Of a stretch of DNA of 32,985 nucleotides, positions 9,509 to 32,707 are shown piece after piece. The first letter of the stretch is position 1. The number at the start of each line of letters is the position of its first letter. Both the position numbers and the translations under genes were made by a program. Below the pieces are notes generated by a model. That model was not told the DNA's origin. It worked only from the letters and a program-made list of their open reading frames with translations, and did not search any database. This stretch comes from a virus, in IMG/VR virus record IMGVR_UViG_3300043427_003388, positions 1-32,985 of that record; one strand, 5' to 3'.

Positions 9509-9707
9509 GGGATGCCGTTGATGTGAACCGATGTTACAGGTTTACAGTCTTGGTTGACACTATCCCCAAAACGCTGTCCTGGAGGGTAGTCTGATCGGTT
9601 GCCTCGTTGGCGGGGAAAGGGGAGTCTTTGCGTGAGACGCGCTGGACTCAAACCAAGTTGCGCGGCTGATGCCTAGATCAATATCGAGATTCGAATTCAC
9701 CCCCGCT
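9509..9707. other. Non-coding leader upstream of the terminase operon
   Basis: No credible gene is visible. The plus strand holds TTGACA near 9553 but no matching -10 hexamer at the right distance, and I could not assign a clear minus-strand promoter. This stretch separates the small-terminase start from the operator array beginning at 9708. A cos or pac site could lie here, as it often does next to the small terminase gene, but no diagnostic repeat was found. Confidence 0.4.
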
Positions 9708-9901
9708 GAGAATCATTATCAAGGACCCATTGAGAATCAATAATGCTTGCAATTGAGAATCAATAAGCCAGGGCGGTGAGAATGAGAATCATTCTCAACA
9801 CCTACGGCAAGGAAAATGAGAATCATTCTCATTAAGCGGCGAGGCCGCCGGAACGATAATCATTCTCACCCTGCGGGGCGGCTTGAATGATAATCATTCT
9901 C
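9708..9901. promoter_or_regulatory. Array of seven Fur-family-box-like sites
   Basis: Seven related sites lie at 9708-9720, 9732-9744, 9755-9767, 9778-9796, 9812-9830, 9849-9867 and 9883-9901. The first three are half or partial boxes (GAGAATCATTATC, then GAGAATCAATAA twice). The next four are near-complete: GAGAATGAGAATCATTCTC at 9778 and the site at 9812 each match 16 of 19 bases of the classical Fur consensus GATAATGATAATCATTATC, and the site at 9883 contains the perfect 7-1-7 palindrome GAATGATAATCATTC. Core positions are 23-37 bp apart. Fur, Zur or PerR cannot be told apart by sequence alone. The array lies between the terminase operon and a divergent small gene. Confidence 0.72.
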
Positions 9902-9909
9902 ACCCTAAA

Positions 9910-10255: not shown

Positions 10256-11323
10256 TCATTCGGGCATCAGCTGAATGATCCCGTCGGCCAGGCGGATCAG
10301 TGGCGCGTCCGGCAGGATGAATCCGGCGAGCTCAGGATCGGCGCCGCGGGATCGTTTCGCCCTCAGGATCACGGCCACGCCCGCGGGATCGGCCCACCGG
10401 TGATCGGTGGTATCACCGTCGACGGTCTGCAGGGCGACGGTCTGGCCGCCGTGGCTGATCAGCACACGGGCCGGGATCGGGGCGCCCTTAGGTAGGTCGA
10501 TCGGCACGGCCAGGCGGAACCCGGCGAGGGCGGCGGCCATCGCGTCGGCGGCGGCCGTCGGGCGATCGCCGGCCAGGCTGGCCGTAACATCCCATCCAGC
10601 GTCGCGCTGAGCGATCAGGCCGAGCGGCCCGGCGGTCGGCGCCTTTGAATACTCATAGAGTCGCACCGATCCGTCGGCCGTGGCCGGCTGCAGCAGTTCG
10701 GCCAGAGTCTTGCCCTCGCCGTCTGCGATCAGCAGACCGAACCGGCGCCGGATCGCGATGGCTTCGGGCACGCTCACGGTGAGCCGCCGAACGTGCCACG
10801 GCTGATCATCAGTGCCACGCAGTCGCACGGCCAGGGGCAGACCGTCGGCCTGAGCCTTGGCCCACTGACGGGCGATCGCCCAAAGCATGGCCCGGCCGTA
10901 TAGGGCGGGGTCGGCGATCATGGCCAGAGTCCGGCGGCCACGGGCGGCGGCGACTGCGGGCGACAATCCGCCGTGGCCGGCCCAGGCAAGGCACGCCGAC
11001 GCGCAACCCTCAGTGGCCCACGGGCAGGCATTGAAGACCGCCGCGGCGGCCGTCATTCCCTCGCGATCAGCGAGGGCGGCGAGGGCGGCGAGATGACCGC
11101 GGGGCGCAACGGCCGCCCGGTTCGCGGGATCGATCGCGGCGGCGAGGGCGCGGCCCGGCAATCCGTGGTGAATGACGGCCCGGGCGATCGCGGCGCCCTT
11201 GCCTAGTTTCGGGTTCGAATCGGTCAGCACGTCGGCCAGGGTCAGGCCGAACCGGGAGAGATGGGCGGCCACGTCGGCGGGAAGGGCGACGCGGGCGTTT
11301 GAACGAATGAGGGCGGCGGGCAT
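10256..11323 (-). CDS. GP88-like protein, last gene of the accessory operon
   Basis: The protein has 355 residues. The central part (FNACPWATEGCASACLAWAGHG, then about 15 residues on RGRRTLAMIADPALYGRAML) resembles the conserved core of the phage gene product 88 family, in which two or three cysteines precede a tyrosine-like position and an arginine-rich helix. Cys residues at about 99, 106 and 110 could bind metal, but this is not established. The C-terminal third (about 220-355) has alternating strands. I know of no proven function for this family. The start follows a variant of the leader shared by the accessory genes. Base composition is very G+C rich, with three HIP1 octamers inside. A link to the Cys-rich gene upstream is only contextual. 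Confidence 0.55.
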   Translation of the reverse strand: MPAALIRSNARVALPADVAAHLSRFGLTLADVLTDSNPKLGKGAAIARAVIHHGLPGRALAAAIDPANRAAVAPRGHLAALAALADREGMTAAAAVFNACPWATEGCASACLAWAGHGGLSPAVAAARGRRTLAMIADPALYGRAMLWAIARQWAKAQADGLPLAVRLRGTDDQPWHVRRLTVSVPEAIAIRRRFGLLIADGEGKTLAELLQPATADGSVRLYEYSKAPTAGPLGLIAQRDAGWDVTASLAGDRPTAAADAMAAALAGFRLAVPIDLPKGAPIPARVLISHGGQTVALQTVDGDTTDHRWADPAGVAVILRAKRSRGADPELAGFILPDAPLIRLADGIIQLMPE

Positions 11324-11325
11324 GG

Positions 11326-11339
11326 TGTTAGCTGCGTGG
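11326..11339 (-). promoter_or_regulatory. Variant copy of the accessory-gene leader
   Basis: CCACGCAGCTAACA, ending two bases before the ATG at 11323, is the most diverged of the five leader copies. The block CTAACACC-ATG is intact. Confidence 0.45.
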
Positions 11340-11342
11340 TGA

Positions 11343-11906
11343 TCAGATCAGGCGGAGAATCGACAGCCAAGAATCGGGCGCGTCCGGTTCAACCGTTCGG
11401 CCGTCGGGCGTTTCACAGCAGGAATCCAGCGCCCAGAGGTCGAGCTCGCCGTCGGTGGGCGCCGGCCAGAATCGGCCACGCCACCAGATGCGGCGGGCGC
11501 CGCCGGCCTGATCGATCGGCAGACCGGCGCGGGCGGCGAGCTCGCAGGCGGTCTCGGTGGAATCATCGGCGCCGAATTGATCAGCGCGCCACGGGCAATT
11601 GATCGACGCCACCAGATCGGCCCATTGGCGGGCGAACGGCCAGGCGCGGGCGTCGGCAGGATCGATCAGCGCGAACCGGTGATCCCATTGGCGGGCAATC
11701 TCAGCGGCGCGCCGCTTGCTGCAGCGTAGGGTTCCGGCGCTCAGGCCGGACGCCCTATGGCTGATCACCCATTGGCCGCGGCAGACCGGGAATTCGCGGG
11801 CGGAATCACAGGGCGGGGTCAGGGCGACCCATTGGCCGACCCAATGGGCGGGCGCCATAGCGTCGCCGGTGTTGGTGGCGACGCGGCAGGTATGAACAGT
11901 GGGCAT
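11343..11906 (-). CDS. Unknown cysteine- and tryptophan-rich protein
   Basis: The protein has 187 residues and I recognise no family. It is rich in Trp (about twelve) and Cys (about eight), with a helical stretch LRCSKRRAAEIARQWDHRFALIDPADARAWPFARQW and a C-terminal half (GGARRIWWRGRFWP) of beta character. There is no signal peptide or membrane segment, so it should be cytoplasmic. The ATG at 11906 comes directly after the shared leader CCCATCGCACCTAGCACG, which decides the start. It is the second-to-last gene of the leftward accessory operon, 19 bp before the GP88-like gene. Confidence 0.6.
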   Translation of the reverse strand: MPTVHTCRVATNTGDAMAPAHWVGQWVALTPPCDSAREFPVCRGQWVISHRASGLSAGTLRCSKRRAAEIARQWDHRFALIDPADARAWPFARQWADLVASINCPWRADQFGADDSTETACELAARAGLPIDQAGGARRIWWRGRFWPAPTDGELDLWALDSCCETPDGRTVEPDAPDSWLSILRLI

Positions 11907-11908
11907 CG

Positions 11909-11924
11909 TGCTAGGTGCGATGGG
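11909..11924 (-). promoter_or_regulatory. Shared accessory leader, copy 2
   Basis: CCCATCGCACCTAGCA ends two bases before the ATG at 11906. It is identical over 16 bases to the copy at 12344-12359. Confidence 0.65.
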
Positions 11925-11936
11925 AAGGGCGGGCGA

Positions 11937-12113
11937 TCAGTCGCGGTCACTGATCGCCCAACGGTCAGGCGACGGCGCGGCATGGTGGCCGGCGGCGACG
12001 CGGGCCGTATAAGCGGCGAGAATCGCGGCGAGCTGATCGGCCATGGCCGGATCGGACGCGGCAACCCAACCGCCGGCGACGCGAAGCAAGGGCGGGCGAT
12101 CGGGGCGGATCAC
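11937..12113 (-). CDS. Unknown small protein of 58 residues
   Basis: A GTG start overlaps the TGA of the upstream gene (GTGA), a common sign of translational coupling, so I prefer it to a longer frame that would overlap that gene by 120 bases. The product has one helical stretch, MADQLAAILAAYTARVAAG, and ends PDRWAISDRD. No family is recognised. It is the only gene of the accessory operon without its own leader copy, which agrees with coupled translation. Confidence is moderate because high G+C content keeps several frames open here. Confidence 0.45.
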   Translation of the reverse strand: MIRPDRPPLLRVAGGWVAASDPAMADQLAAILAAYTARVAAGHHAAPSPDRWAISDRD

Positions 12114-12340
12114 GGCCGAGCGAGGGCGGCGCCGATGGCCAGACCGCTCAGCAGCTGCTGAGCCTCGCCGGGCGTCAAGCATTCGCCGAGCGGCTGAGCG
12201 CCGGCGCCGAACCGGCGCATGACGTGCCAACCGGTGGCCGAGCGTTGACAGAAGACTTCGCTAGGGCGGCTGTCGCCGTAAAGGGCGCAGCTGACACGCT
12301 CGGCGGCCTTATGGAGCTGATTGGGCGTGATACGTGCCAC
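12110..12340 (-). CDS. Unknown small protein of 76 residues
   Basis: The GTG at 12340 follows the shared leader with a 3-base gap, which fixes the start. The product reads MARITPNQLHKAAERVSCALYG and later LTPGEAQQLLSGLAIGAAL: two helices around a short beta region (VFCQRSATGWHVMRRF). No family is recognised. The pattern, a small soluble two-helix protein, would fit a DNA-binding or accessory regulator, but nothing proves this. The end overlaps the start of the 58-residue gene. Confidence 0.55.
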   Translation of the reverse strand: MARITPNQLHKAAERVSCALYGDSRPSEVFCQRSATGWHVMRRFGAGAQPLGECLTPGEAQQLLSGLAIGAALARP

Positions 12341-12343
12341 GGA

Positions 12344-12359
12344 TGCTAGGTGCGATGGG
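12344..12359 (-). promoter_or_regulatory. Shared accessory leader, copy 3
   Basis: CCCATCGCACCTAGCA ends three bases before the GTG at 12340. Confidence 0.65.
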
Positions 12360-12371
12360 ATGGGGCGGCGA

Positions 12372-12581
12372 TCAGCGGCGGCGGGCGGCGGGCGTGGCCG
12401 CGTCGGCGATCGCTGCAGCAGTCAGGGCGGCGGCGGCGGCGGCCATGCCGCCAAACCATACGAAACCGGCCACGGATTGGGTGCGGTTACCGTCGACCGG
12501 GGCCAGAGCGGCGGCGGCGACTGCGCAAGCGGCCGTGGTTGATGCCATGGCGCCGATCAGAAATGCGTGCGGGTTCTTCAT
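12372..12581 (-). CDS. Small protein with two predicted membrane segments
   Basis: The protein has 69 residues. Hydrophobic segments at about 6-27 (AFLIGAMASTTAACAVAAAALA) and 39-61 (GFVWFGGMAAAAAALTAAAIA) are separated by a short polar loop, and it ends in RRR. This would form a hairpin in the inner membrane. The size and shape recall phage holins, but the alanine-rich composition is poor evidence and no endolysin gene is nearby. The start directly follows the shared leader. It is the second gene of the accessory operon. Confidence 0.55.
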   Translation of the reverse strand: MKNPHAFLIGAMASTTAACAVAAAALAPVDGNRTQSVAGFVWFGGMAAAAAALTAAAIADAATPAARRR

Positions 12582-12583
12582 GG

Positions 12584-12599
12584 TGTTAGGTGCGATGGG
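12584..12599 (-). promoter_or_regulatory. Shared accessory leader, copy 4
   Basis: CCCATCGCACCTAACA ends two bases before the ATG at 12581 and is identical to the copy at 13015-13030. Confidence 0.65.
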
Positions 12600-12677
12600 G
12601 ACGACCGTTCGGCCGTTGACGGAATTCTGCCGACGCGCCCGACCCGATCAATGGGCGGGCGGGCGGTTCGGCGATTG

Positions 12678-13010
12678 TCACACGGCGAGGGCGGCGATCA
12701 GCTCGGCCCGGCGGCCGTAGGTATAAAGGCGGCGCGGCAGACCGGCGACGCGGGCGGCCGTGCGCAGTTCGACCACGGTCAGGCGATCGACGGGCGCGGG
12801 CCGGTCGACCCGATCGGCGAGGGCACGTAATCCGGCGGCGGCGATCGGGGCCAGCCGAACGGCGAGGGCGTGGCACACGGCGGCCACGGTCAGGGCGACC
12901 ATAAGGGCGCGGGCGGCGGCCGCTTGCCAATCGATCGCGCTAAGGGCGGCGATCGCATCATCAATGGGCGGAAACGCGGGCGCGGGCGCCCGGCTGACTG
13001 TAAGGGTCAT
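12678..13010 (-). CDS. Membrane-anchored SAP-like domain protein
   Basis: The protein has 110 residues. A hydrophobic segment at about 33-60 (ARALMVALTVAAVCHALAVRLAPIAAAGL) could span the membrane. The C-terminal 35 residues (LTVVELRTAARVAGLPRRLYTYGRRAELIAAL) have the spacing of a SAP or Rho N-terminal-like helix-extension-helix domain, which binds DNA in many proteins. A membrane-tethered DNA-binding protein is therefore plausible. This is the first gene of the accessory operon and lies downstream of the operator region 13251-13496. The ATG is fixed by the shared leader, here with a 4-base gap. Confidence 0.6.
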   Translation of the reverse strand: MTLTVSRAPAPAFPPIDDAIAALSAIDWQAAAARALMVALTVAAVCHALAVRLAPIAAAGLRALADRVDRPAPVDRLTVVELRTAARVAGLPRRLYTYGRRAELIAALAV

Positions 13011-13161: not shown

Positions 13162-13250
13162 AACGGGTCGGCCTGGCCGCCCCATATATAAGGTCGCCGC
13201 CGATCGGAAACGCGGCGCGTCGGATGCAGGAATTCTGCCGGCGTGGCCGT

Positions 13251-13269
13251 GAGAATGATTATCATTCCT
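13251..13269. promoter_or_regulatory. Fur-family-box-like site
   Basis: GAGAATGATTATCATTCCT contains the perfect 7-1-7 palindrome GAATGATTATCATTC (13253-13267). It matches about 15 of 19 bases of the Fur consensus and lies 14 bp from the LexA-type array. Confidence 0.65.
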
Positions 13270-13282
13270 GGTCGAGTTTAAT

Positions 13283-13416
13283 AGTACAAATGTACTAGCG
13301 TACAAATGTACTGAAATACCGATAGTACAAATGTACTAGCGTACAAATGTACTCATTAACTAGTACAAATGTACTGAAATACCGATAGTACAAATGTACT
13401 AGCGAACGGATGTACC
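13283..13416. promoter_or_regulatory. Array of LexA-box-like palindromes (AGTACAAATGTACT)
   Basis: Copies start at 13283, 13299, 13324, 13340, 13362 and 13387, with a degenerate seventh (CGAACGGATGTACC) at 13403. Four are AGTACAAATGTACT and match the cyanobacterial LexA box RGTACNNNDGTWCB at every position; two begin with C in place of A. Spacings are 16, 25, 16, 22, 25 and 16 bp, so pairs are repeated as larger units with linkers such as GAAATACCGAT. The core TACAAATGTA also fits the CopY/BlaI operator TACANNTGTA, but no such regulator gene is visible. The array is upstream of the accessory operon. Confidence 0.75.
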
Positions 13417-13477
13417 AGCCGCCGCGTGTGTGGGATCGCTGACACGGGCCTTATTGAGAATGAGTCGCAATTGCAGT

Positions 13478-13496
13478 GAGAACGATTATCATTCTC
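13478..13496. promoter_or_regulatory. Fur-family-box-like site
   Basis: GAGAACGATTATCATTCTC matches 16 of 19 bases of GATAATGATTATCATTATC. A half site, GAGAATGAG, precedes it at 13456. Confidence 0.65.
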
Positions 13497-15599: not shown

Positions 15600-15833
15600 T
15601 CAAGAGCCGAAGCAGACATTGCGTGAATCGCCGCAGAAGACCATCCGCTGCTCCCTGGCCAGCCAGACAGCCCCACGGCCGCCCTGGAGGCCCTCCCAGG
15701 TGCCTGATGCCCAATGGGAGCCCATATAGACCTTGCAGGCCGTTCCACGGGGCTTGGCGGGCCAGCGAGAGGGGTCGCCTGCCAGGCGCTGGTGGTCGGG
15801 GAGGGACTTGGGCATGGCTGGGACCGTTTTCAT
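15600..15833 (-). CDS. Unknown small basic protein (up to 77 residues)
   Basis: Candidate starts are ATG 15833 (MKTVPAMPKSLPDHQRLAG) and ATG 15815 (MPKSLPDH). The product contains WPAKPRGTACKVYMGSHWASGTWEGLQGG and ends NVCFGS, with many Trp, Gly and Cys. No family is recognised. It is followed by a strong terminator, which supports it. The first start codon lies inside a copy of the ACCGTATGA repeat (15830-15838), so a protein binding the repeat could block its translation or transcription. Confidence 0.5.
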   Translation of the reverse strand: MKTVPAMPKSLPDHQRLAGDPSRWPAKPRGTACKVYMGSHWASGTWEGLQGGRGAVWLAREQRMVFCGDSRNVCFGS

Positions 15834-16093
15834 ACGGTCTGGCAAAAACCGTATGAAGACCGTATGACGAAAACCCTTGGTATGACTGCCTTCATACATA
15901 TCATACGGTTAATACGAGAAATATATATATAAGGGGCTCGGTCAGAGAGGGTGTCTGTGCCTCTGGGTCTCTCATTGTCTATGGGTGTTTCTCCGGAAAA
16001 AACCGTATGAACCGTAGCAACCGCTGAGATCCCTTGCAGCGCAAGGGTTTTGAGGCATACGGAAGGCTTGTATGGCACCGTATGACCGTATGA
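15830..16093. repeat. Array of ACCGTATGA repeats; candidate replication origin or operator
   Basis: Seven perfect copies of the 9-mer: 15848-15856, 15859-15867, 16002-16010, 16077-16085 and 16085-16093 on the plus strand, and 15830-15838 and 15901-15909 inverted. Diverged copies lie near 15877, 16011 and 16055. Two pairs sit 11 bp or less apart. The array occupies the gap between the primase-helicase gene and the next leftward gene and encloses an AT-rich stretch, the arrangement of iteron origins. An operator cluster for a phage regulator is the alternative. Confidence 0.6.
15911..15935. other. AT-rich stretch within the repeat array
   Basis: This stretch includes ATATATATATAA in a G+C-rich genome, flanked by ACCGTATGA repeats. 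It could be the unwinding element of an origin, or a -10 element for the leftward 15833 gene. Confidence 0.45.
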
Positions 16094-16095
16094 AA

Positions 16096-18735
16096 TCAAG
16101 TCTTATTGATCTCAAATGGGACCAGCGTTGCGCGTTGCATGCCGACGCCGGTGAAATACACCGGATCCTTGGTCACCTCCGCCCCGGTGAGCCGCTTGAG
16201 CGATGAGCGGTGGGCGTTGTTGGCCCACTGGGTATCGCGGAAGATCGTGGCCAGCTGCCGGTTGTTGTGGGCGACAGCAACGAAGTGCATCTGGCAGGGC
16301 TGCTCACCGCCTGGCATCAGGTCGAGACCCTTGCGATACACCTTGAGACCCCATCGGCCGAGGATCTTGGCCAGCTCCGGCGCCGTCGTGGCCTGCAGCG
16401 GTGCTCCAGTGGCCACGCACAGCACCAGCTCGCCGAGCTGCGCCTTCTGGCCCATGGAGAAGTCCACGAGGTGCTGGAGGATCGTGTCACGGCACTTGAC
16501 CTCATCAGCGTCGCTCTCGTCGCTGTCGCGGGTCTCCCAGTCCATCTGGTCGATCCACTGCTTGGCCATGTCGAGCGACAGCTCGCCGCCACCGCCGGGC
16601 TCGAGGCTCCATGCACCGGCTAGGAGCGTGCCGTGCTGATCGCCAAAGCGCTGCCCGAAACGATGGGCAAGTGCCCGGCCGAGCACCTTGGCATTGGCCT
16701 TGATGGTTGGGATCTGCTGCAACGTGCGAGCGATCAATCGCCGACCGTTTTCAACAGTGGCTAAGTCGATGATTTCGGCTTCAAAGCGCGTCCAGTCGTC
16801 CTTGGGAACGGGATCCTTGCGCAGCGGCAAAACGCAAAATCGATCGAGGTCAGCTTTCTGAAACAGCGCAACTGTGATCGAGGACACGCAGAACATCGAG
16901 CGAATTTCAAATGAATTTGCGCCGCCAGATGTGGTGCCTTTGATGATGCGACCGCCCTCCGATGATGCGATGCGAGCGAGTGATAGGACGTTTTGGACGA
17001 TGCCTTTGTCGCGTGCTTCGTTCTGCTCGAATTCATCGAAGACGACAGGCACAGCATCGGACTTGAGGGTGCCGCGCAGGCCGGCCTCGGTCGTTCCACC
17101 GGTGGCTGCTTGGTAGATGCCACCGAGCAGTGGCTTCATGAAAGACTTCAGGATGGTGGTCTTGCCGGTGCCAGCGCCACCAGTAACCCAGATGTGCGGC
17201 CGCCAATCGAGGGCGCCGCAGACGGGTGCGAGAACGATCCAGCCGAGGAGCATGTTGGCGCTGGCGGGCGTTTCCCAGCGGAAGCGCTCAGCGATGCAGC
17301 GGAGCTTAAAAGCGGCGTCGTCGGGCAGGGCGTCAGGGGCAGGGCCGAGCAGCTCCTTGGCATTTTCGTAGAAGTAGTAGCTCTCGAAATCAGACGGCAG
17401 CTTGGTGATCGGGTAGGAGCGACCGTCGACGATGAGGCGATTGCCGAGGTGGAAGATCACGCGATCGGCGTCGGTCCATGCGCCGCGGCCACGCACGCGA
17501 TCTGGGTTGTAGACGCCTTGCGCGATGCAGGCGCCCATGATGGCGTTCTGGGCTGAGTCCCAGTCGATGCGGTTGCCCTGCTCGTTGCTGAAACCTTGTG
17601 CCCACCACTCAAGGGGCGCGAGCATGAGGAAGTGCGACTTGTTGTGTTGAGCAGCAGTGAGCTCAACGACTTGGCCACCGGCCTGAGGCAAGTAGTAGAA
17701 AGTGCCGTGGTCGAAGCCAAGCGGCCTGAATGGCATGCGATCGACTGGGCCAAGGTCGCGAGCACTGTCGCTGAGATCCGGCTGCGTGACAGGGTTTTCG
17801 GCCGACTCATCAGCAACTTCTGCAGGCCGCTCCATCGGCCGGTGATTGGCCTTGACGTAAGCAAGCGCTTCGGCTGGCGACCAGTCGGCATCGGCGATGT
17901 CCCACTTCTCGGGTGCATCGGGCGGTGCGTCGATGGTGAGCAGCTTGGCGGGCTCACGGATGAGGCCAGCGATCTTGGCCATGGCGTCGCGGCCTTGATC
18001 GTCGTTGTCAGGCCAAAGGAGGATGCTGCGACCGGCGAGGGGCGACCAGTCGACCTTGGCGACGGATTGAGCGCCGTTGGGCCAGGCGACAGCTACAAGC
18101 TGCGGGAACAGCTCCTGGGCACGGTCGGCAGCCTTCTCGCCTTCGCAGACGATGACCTGAGCGGTGGGCCGAGCTGCTAGGGCGGCGAGGTTGTAGAGCG
18201 GGCGAGGCGTGGGCCAAGAGGTGCCTGAAGCACCCTGCCAGCCGGTGCCGTCGACCCAGGTGCGATGGCGAAAGATCTTGTCGCCGTTGGGGCGGGTGAT
18301 GCGCTGAATCCAGAACAGCTGCTCGCCGGCGGCATCGGTGTAGCACCACTGATGAGAGGCACCATCGAGGGCCGGGGGTGCGGCGTCGATGGGTGGCTTG
18401 ATGGGCGCAGGTGTTGCTGGCTTGGATGCGGAGGGGCGGGGCACGCCGAGATAGTCCTCAACAGCGCGAGCAGCTTCTTTGAATTCCCAGCCCTTGACGC
18501 GCATGAGGAGCGACATGCCGTTGCCGCCACCGCCCATGCCGTCTTTGCCTCCGCAGTGGGAGCAGAACCATGTGCCGTTGCCGTCCTGGTCGTCGAAGCG
18601 AAAGCGGTCTTCGCCGTCTCTGCAGGAAGGGCAGGGCTTGTGCTTGTTGTCGAGATAGGAGACTGGGACGCCACCGACTGAGGAGAGGATTTCAACCCAG
18701 CGGCCTTGGGCGAGATCAACGACGCTGGTTTTCAT
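16096..18735 (-). CDS. Phage primase-helicase
   Basis: The protein has 879 residues. A zinc-binding primase domain is at the N-terminus with Cys35, Cys38, Cys58 and Cys61 (KPCPSC, WFCSHCGG), followed by a Toprim-like region at about 185-260 (VIVCEGEKAADRA, ILLWPDNDDQGRDAM). The C-terminal half is an ATPase/helicase, with Walker A GGAGTGKTT at about 520 and a Walker B-like VVFDEFEQNEA near 560. Such fusions lay primers and unwind DNA at the phage fork, often loading at an adjacent origin. The ACCGTATGA array begins directly after its stop codon. Its start overlaps the small RHH-like gene by 20 bases. Confidence 0.85.
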   Translation of the reverse strand: MKTSVVDLAQGRWVEILSSVGGVPVSYLDNKHKPCPSCRDGEDRFRFDDQDGNGTWFCSHCGGKDGMGGGGNGMSLLMRVKGWEFKEAARAVEDYLGVPRPSASKPATPAPIKPPIDAAPPALDGASHQWCYTDAAGEQLFWIQRITRPNGDKIFRHRTWVDGTGWQGASGTSWPTPRPLYNLAALAARPTAQVIVCEGEKAADRAQELFPQLVAVAWPNGAQSVAKVDWSPLAGRSILLWPDNDDQGRDAMAKIAGLIREPAKLLTIDAPPDAPEKWDIADADWSPAEALAYVKANHRPMERPAEVADESAENPVTQPDLSDSARDLGPVDRMPFRPLGFDHGTFYYLPQAGGQVVELTAAQHNKSHFLMLAPLEWWAQGFSNEQGNRIDWDSAQNAIMGACIAQGVYNPDRVRGRGAWTDADRVIFHLGNRLIVDGRSYPITKLPSDFESYYFYENAKELLGPAPDALPDDAAFKLRCIAERFRWETPASANMLLGWIVLAPVCGALDWRPHIWVTGGAGTGKTTILKSFMKPLLGGIYQAATGGTTEAGLRGTLKSDAVPVVFDEFEQNEARDKGIVQNVLSLARIASSEGGRIIKGTTSGGANSFEIRSMFCVSSITVALFQKADLDRFCVLPLRKDPVPKDDWTRFEAEIIDLATVENGRRLIARTLQQIPTIKANAKVLGRALAHRFGQRFGDQHGTLLAGAWSLEPGGGGELSLDMAKQWIDQMDWETRDSDESDADEVKCRDTILQHLVDFSMGQKAQLGELVLCVATGAPLQATTAPELAKILGRWGLKVYRKGLDLMPGGEQPCQMHFVAVAHNNRQLATIFRDTQWANNAHRSSLKRLTGAEVTKDPVYFTGVGMQRATLVPFEINKT

Positions 18736-32384: not shown

Positions 32385-32400
32385 TGCGGGTTTGGATTGG

Positions 32401-32471
32401 TAGGCCCATTCAGAATTGAACTGAAATCCGTCGATTAAAAGTCGACTGCTCTACCGTTGAGCTATGGGCCC
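32401..32471 (-). tRNA. tRNA-Lys(TTT)
   Basis: A full cloverleaf folds on the minus strand: acceptor GGGCCCA/TGGGCCT (first pair G-U), D arm GCTC/GAGC with a 7-base loop, anticodon stem GTCGA/TCGAC with loop CTTTTAA (anticodon TTT), a 4-base variable loop and T arm TTCAG/CTGAA with loop TTCAATT. Discriminator A; CCA not encoded. The AT-rich T stem and short D and variable loops are less like a typical host tRNA-Lys, suggesting a phage-encoded copy or an attachment-site copy. Confidence 0.88.
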
Positions 32472-32479
32472 TAAAAGCT

Positions 32480-32707
32480 TGCGCGAATACTGCGCGAACG
32501 CCATTTCTGCTACTGCTTAACCCCTTGTTTTCATTCACAAAAATCAGCCCGATCAACTGATTAAAAGTCTCTTTCGCACGCCTCACGCAACTTCACGCAA
32601 ACTCATTAAAGCTCTGATTCATCAACAGAATCCGCTATTGCGTTTTTCGGCTGATTCGCGCAAGTTACCGCAAATTCGCGCAGATTTGCGCGAATAGTGC
32701 GCGAACG
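32480..32707. repeat. TGCGCGAA repeats flanking the integrase promoter region
   Basis: Six octamers: TGCGCGAA at 32480, 32491, 32687 and 32698, and its complement TTCGCGCA at 32655 and 32675. The copies at 32480/32491 and 32687/32698 form near-identical 21-bp direct repeats (20 of 21 bases), with 11-bp spacing. TTCGCGCA-GATT-TGCGCGAA at 32675-32694 is a perfect inverted repeat. These could be arm-type integrase sites or regulator sites. Confidence 0.65.

Follow-up and report, generated by a model that had tools for sequence, protein, structure and literature searches.

An iteron array behind a phage primase-helicase gene as a probable replication origin of PICI/SaPI style, with an apparently exchangeable reader domain

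The window considered here, meaning the whole stretch of DNA that was analysed, is the 32,985-nucleotide IMG/VR virus record IMGVR_UViG_3300043427_003388. Its genes include those for terminase, portal, major head and tail proteins, together with RecT-like, exonuclease, SSB and helicase proteins; the virion genes identify the record as that of a tailed phage, and the virus is cyanophage-like. A 280-bp intergenic gap (15816-16095) separates the stop codon of a primase-helicase gene from the next minus-strand ORF, whose ATG is at 15815, and is occupied by an array of short repeats (Table 1). A preliminary description had reported seven perfect copies of a 9-mer in 264 bp, in both orientations, directly behind the replication gene and surrounding an AT-rich stretch, and each of these points was recovered. 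All seven copies of ACCGTATGA were found again, five on the plus and two on the minus strand, with the first copy 3 bp past the primase-helicase stop, and the AT-rich stretch has iteron sets on either side (16002-16093 and 15830-15909). Two opposed iteron sets flanking an AT-rich region are a feature of the PICI-type origin layout.

Table 1. Coordinates of the primase-helicase gene, its domains and the elements of the adjacent array in the window
Feature	Position	Strand	Basis
Primase-helicase, 879 aa, initiator candidate	16096..18735	-	PHROG primase 35358 (E 2e-112), Pfam Zn_Ribbon_Prim
TOPRIM primase domain, residues 112-302	17830..18402	-	structure match to DnaG, T7 gp4
AAA+ helicase region, residues 323-738	16522..17769	-	best structure match SCCmec Cch 5dgk
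C-terminal winged-helix-like domain, residues 744-879, proposed origin-binding	16099..16506	-	AF2; covariation with iteron type
Reader segment, residues 858-871, beta strands of wing	16123..16164	-	differ/same contrast, residue table
Tyr860 codon	16156-16158	-	within reader segment
Iteron ACCGTATGA	16085..16093	+	exact match
Iteron ACCGTATGA	16077..16085	+	exact match
Iteron ACCGTATGA	16002..16010	+	exact match
Iteron ACCGTATGA	15901..15909	-	exact match
Iteron ACCGTATGA	15859..15867	+	exact match
Iteron ACCGTATGA	15848..15856	+	exact match
Iteron ACCGTATGA	15830..15838	-	exact match
AT-rich stretch, proposed unwinding element	15910..15932		same position AT-rich in relatives
Palindrome CCCTTGCGCTGCAAGGG, element E1	16031..16047		recurs in relatives; weak hairpin signal
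Element E2, AGTCATACCAAGGGTTTTCG on minus strand	15868..15887		recurs in relatives
CCGGAGAAACACCCATAGA box, between iterons and AT-rich stretch	15978..15996	-	by eye in many relatives

About 0.0013 exact copies of ACCGTATGA would be expected in 264 bp, both strands, from base composition, and the 32,985-bp record contains none outside the array, even when one mismatch is allowed. The array is also the top 8-mer cluster among all 280-bp segments of the record (7 copies), the runner-up containing 6 copies of unrelated repeats. Two further copies with two mismatches lie inside it (at 16011 and 16055), and the iterons at 16077 and 16085 share one base. Read on the primase strand, the array begins with two overlapping TCATACGGT words, the palindrome CCCTTGCGCTGCAAGGG and one further copy, continues through a pyrimidine- and AT-rich middle that contains the AT core to an inverted copy and a AGTCATACCAAGGG element, and ends with two direct copies and a last, inverted one. 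CCCTTG...CAAGGG elements of the E1/E2 kind occupy fixed places, with varying arms, in most relatives' arrays (L008-L197); in a comparison with the ssi of RSF1010-type oriV, their hairpin arms were weakly above shuffled sequences (3.9 vs 3.4 and 3.6 vs 3.3). GC skew, which had been suggested as a check, makes no clear turn at the array, and an Rfam search returned nothing above threshold, the best match being PsrR1 (E 0.069, below the gathering score).

A scan of IMG/VR with three primase-helicases yielded about 180 loci, from which removal of proteins more than 95% alike left a non-redundant set of 91 relatives. At least four copies of a single 7-mer are present within 350 bp past the stop in 73 of the 91 (about 80%), as compared with 2-6% under the same criterion in three control windows; the other 20% or so are without a clean array of identical words. 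The words take the form [T/C]NNN-ACG(G/C), with the first four bases dependent on lineage, and 16 iteron types were distinguished in 124 loci, among them TGTAACG, TGTTACG, CCTAACG, TCTTACG, TCTCACG, TCTGACG, CATTACG, TGTCACG and TCATACG. Further array types besides that of the window are TGTTACGG, CCTAACGG and TCTCACGG. Although the word changes, the opposed sets around an AT-rich middle are retained across relatives, and the array is kept where the downstream gene is another one. The layout extends to Bdellovibrio phage phi1422, in which a protein of 30% identity with Arg at position 860 is followed by eleven copies of TGTTACC around a long AT-rich stretch; used as a query, the phi1422 protein matched only phi1422 itself. 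No array was found past the genes of more distant phage primases (L051-L056), and a generic paired-iteron pattern gave no useful matches in 8 virus records.

Several cyanobacterial genomes contain three to four copies each of the primase-helicase and array, including Synechococcus HJ21-Hayes (L203, L205, L227, L232) and Cyanobium Cruz-8D1 (L199, L200, L224); these may be prophages or satellites. The copies within one genome often share an iteron type, so avoidance of incompatibility finds no support as a driver of iteron diversity.

The AlphaFold2 model of the primase-helicase has a pLDDT of 87.5 over the full length and 89.3 over the C-terminal part, with values mostly above 90 in the winged-helix-like domain (residues 744-879). 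Residues 112-302 match the polymerase domain of Staphylococcus aureus DnaG and the T7 gp4 primase with Z of about 14 (VIA-align). The best structural match for residues 323-879 is SCCmec Cch (5dgk; Z 14.6, 416 residues aligned), with the SaPI5 primase-helicase PriRep at Z 13.5 and MCM helicases also near. Matches of the C-terminal domain alone are weak, SaPIBov1 Rep and Cch having Z of about 4 (best initiator 4.0). Sequence searches gave no significant Pfam match to the SaPI Rep or Cch families and no clear helicase relative in the PDB. In four relatives (L010, L037, L049, L202), another N-terminal primase region is joined to the same helicase, C-terminal domain and array.

For the association between protein and iteron, pairs of primase-helicases were binned by overall identity, and residues were sought that differ when the iteron differs and agree when it is the same. 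Residues 810-879 are singled out, above all 860, 871, 864, 858 and 867, and the C-terminal domain is the sole region with residues tracking iteron type. The contrast between pairs with differing and with identical iterons is 68% vs 4% at residue 860, 48% vs 3% at 867 and 74% vs 17% at 871. Arg860 accompanies iterons starting with TG or CG in 60 of 61 loci, Trp860 those starting with CC in 20 of 21, and Tyr or His860 those starting with TC or CA in all 42. Across residues 330-879, column 860 is the most discriminating for G as the second base (R in 98% vs 0%). The difference between the window itself (Tyr860 with TCATACGG) and L010, a near relative (Trp860 with CCATACGG), is the one that this table predicts. 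One exception, L122, has TCTCACG in the first half of its array, which fits its Tyr, and TGTAACG in the second; this array is either a natural hybrid or an assembly chimera.

When a tree is built from the helicase core, six of seven independent pairs change the second base and Arg860 together and none in the opposite way (p 0.031). The tree built from the C-terminal domain (residues 745-855) offers only three well-supported independent pairs, two concordant and none opposite, a number that makes the phylogenetic control there thin, and the covariation could in part reflect the physical linkage of C-terminus and array. A later set was drawn from a scan of bacterial genomes made after the table, with 49 loci having a readable C-terminus; scoring was restricted to [T/C]NNN-ACG words present in three or more copies by family, and loci lacking such words were for that reason left unscored. 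All 36 scorable loci fit the table, among them a Paraburkholderia rhynchosiae locus that combines Tyr with TCTTACG and one from a cyanobacterial MAG that combines Trp with CCAAACG, although the fair count is the 15 distinct reader tails, since many of these loci are close kin. On these correspondences, the C-terminal domain is most likely the reader of the iterons.

Reader and array have also changed together. The DNA of L168 and L185 is about 90% identical until some 300 bp before the stop, falls to 38-71% across the final 100 codons and the 300 bp that follow the stop, and returns to 80-98% further on; between the two, the iteron changes from TGTTACG to TCTGACG and residue 860 from Arg to Tyr. 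An independent case with the same block boundaries is that of L078/L081 vs L080/L082, in which the helicase cores are 94-97% and the C-termini 42-45% identical. Thus, the last 100 or so codons and the array of about 300 bp were changed jointly at least twice within otherwise roughly 90% identical DNA. The sharp rise to high identity on both flanks, seen in comparisons of two sequences each, favours recombination rather than fast divergence as the origin of these blocks.

The closest known arrangement is the pri-rep-ori module of SaPIs and PICIs. PICI origins consist of two iteron sets around an AT-rich region 3' of rep, a layout that has been called unique to PICIs (PMC6092414), and SaPI/PICI initiators are self-loading AAA+ helicases whose C-terminal domain recognises the iterons, with a primase sometimes fused (PMC7581432, PMC6092414). 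In SaPIBov1 (Rep), SaPI5 (PriRep) and the E. coli PICIs, the origin lies directly 3' of the initiator gene, as it does in the window. However, the SaPI/PICI primase is of the AEP type whereas that of the window is of the DnaG/T7 TOPRIM type, and the iteron sequences are unrelated. No description of a recognition code or of cassette exchange was found for SaPI/PICI modules in the literature consulted. A PICI depends on a helper for its virion; the window, in contrast, belongs to a tailed phage that is autonomous and has terminase, portal, major head and tail genes of its own, and because of these it is not a PICI and resembles one in its replication module only. SCCmec Cch2 likewise binds, through its C-terminal domain, repeats just 3' of its gene (PMC7581432). 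Cch, the best fold match above, is related to SaPI Rep, the origin of which is directly behind rep, but Cch is only about 13% identical to the window protein, carries no fused primase and belongs to an SCCmec element. A similar comparative approach matched initiator residues to changing iterons in the iteron-related domain of geminivirus Rep (Arguello-Astorga and Ruiz-Medrano 2001, as cited in PMC12548392), which is a rolling-circle initiator of ssDNA plant viruses with unrelated fold and mechanism.

The alpha protein of satellite phage P4 is a primase and a helicase that also recognises the origin, all in a single chain, and acts with ori and crr iterons. The zinc-ribbon family Zn_Ribbon_Prim is common to alpha and the window primase-helicase; P4 has ori and a distant crr, each with type I iterons, and the record has a single iteron array.

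Taken together, the conserved position and architecture of the array, the covariation of the C-terminus and the predicted fold similarity to self-loading initiators lend strong comparative support to the earlier suggestion of a phage replication origin. With a probability of roughly 0.85, the phage replicates from the array as its origin and has the adjacent primase-helicase as initiator, the C-terminal wing reading the iterons and residue 860 their first two bases. The system is best read as an autonomous tailed phage's self-loading initiator of PICI/SaPI type, with an origin of its own, a naturally varied code and an exchangeable specificity cassette. By analogy, the simplest mechanism for the primase-helicase would be that of the SaPI/PICI initiators. 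The winged-helix-like domain would bind the iterons via its beta-wing (residues ~858-871), with residue 860 contacting bases 1 and 2; binding at both opposed sets would load a pair of AAA+ helicase rings, one set of iterons for each, about the AT-rich stretch, and these rings would open it and travel outward, while the fused primase domains would make the first primers. The wider proposition is judged probable: that tailed phages carry origins of this style, read by the C-terminal domain through a simple code, that reader and array are exchanged as a cassette of about 600 bp with the rest of the replication gene unchanged, and that one residue predicts the class of origin.

Among the alternatives, the primase-helicase might bind the array for autoregulation, partition or recombination-dependent loading alone rather than for initiation. 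The covariation speaks for binding as such, the step to initiation drawing on fold and on the SaPI/PICI analogy, and the phage does encode RecT-like, exonuclease-like and SSB proteins. However, a helicase/primase fusion suits an initiator, as do opposed iteron sets with an AT-rich stretch in the middle, and PICI origins of this layout sustain plasmid replication (PMC6092414), so that this alternative is considered unlikely. It is more improbable still that the match between residue 860 and the iteron arises from hitchhiking of the array with the 3' end of the neighbouring gene and has no meaning for recognition. The two are indeed adjacent and changed together in at least two cassette changes, but the Trp-CC combination recurs in distant backgrounds (L010, the S-H1 group and L241), as do Tyr-TC (the window, the L118 group and L235) and Arg-TG, the last down to 30% identity in phi1422; moreover, hitchhiking predicts covariation of the whole C-terminus and not the singling out of residue 860. 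The least probable reading, raised in part by the preliminary description, is that the iterons serve as operator sites for a small regulator (its 50-aa ribbon-helix-helix-like protein or another) that controls the gene at 15600-15815 and, past it, the late genes: the array does lie upstream of a same-strand gene and short opposed repeats are common in regulator sites, but arrays are intact in relatives with another downstream gene or without the 50-aa protein, the covarying residues sit in the primase-helicase, and that protein is rejected as the reader, being detectable in only about 10 relatives out of some 190, where homologues about 70% identical adjoin different iterons.

For most environmental phages, replication origins are unknown. 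Here, the initiator protein by itself would allow the origin to be found and its class to be predicted in more than 100 uncultured viruses; if the proposed code is true, a single residue would suffice for the class of sequence. The PICI-type layout would be extended to autonomous phages, and a natural series of protein-DNA specificity variants is provided. The cassette changes suggest that origin specificity is a module swapped among phages, and why phages diversify their origins becomes a testable question.

Elsewhere in the record, six palindromes of the AGTACAAATGTACT kind lie within 118 bp at 13283-13400 (10 strand matches vs 0.13 expected) and fit the cyanobacterial LexA box consensus RGTACNNNDGTWCB. 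Palindromes resembling Fur boxes (TGAGAATCATTCTCA) occur at 9707-9902, 13250-13264 and 13455-13491 (17 strand matches with at most three mismatches vs 0.64 expected). Together, the two kinds of boxes flank a block at 10.2-13.1 kb, in which 10256-13000 has a GC content of about 70% vs 60% elsewhere, reversed GC skew and mostly unassigned ORFs. Finally, several TGCGCGAA / TTCGCGCA repeats at 32480-32705 adjoin a tRNA-Lys(ttt) gene at 32398-32471.
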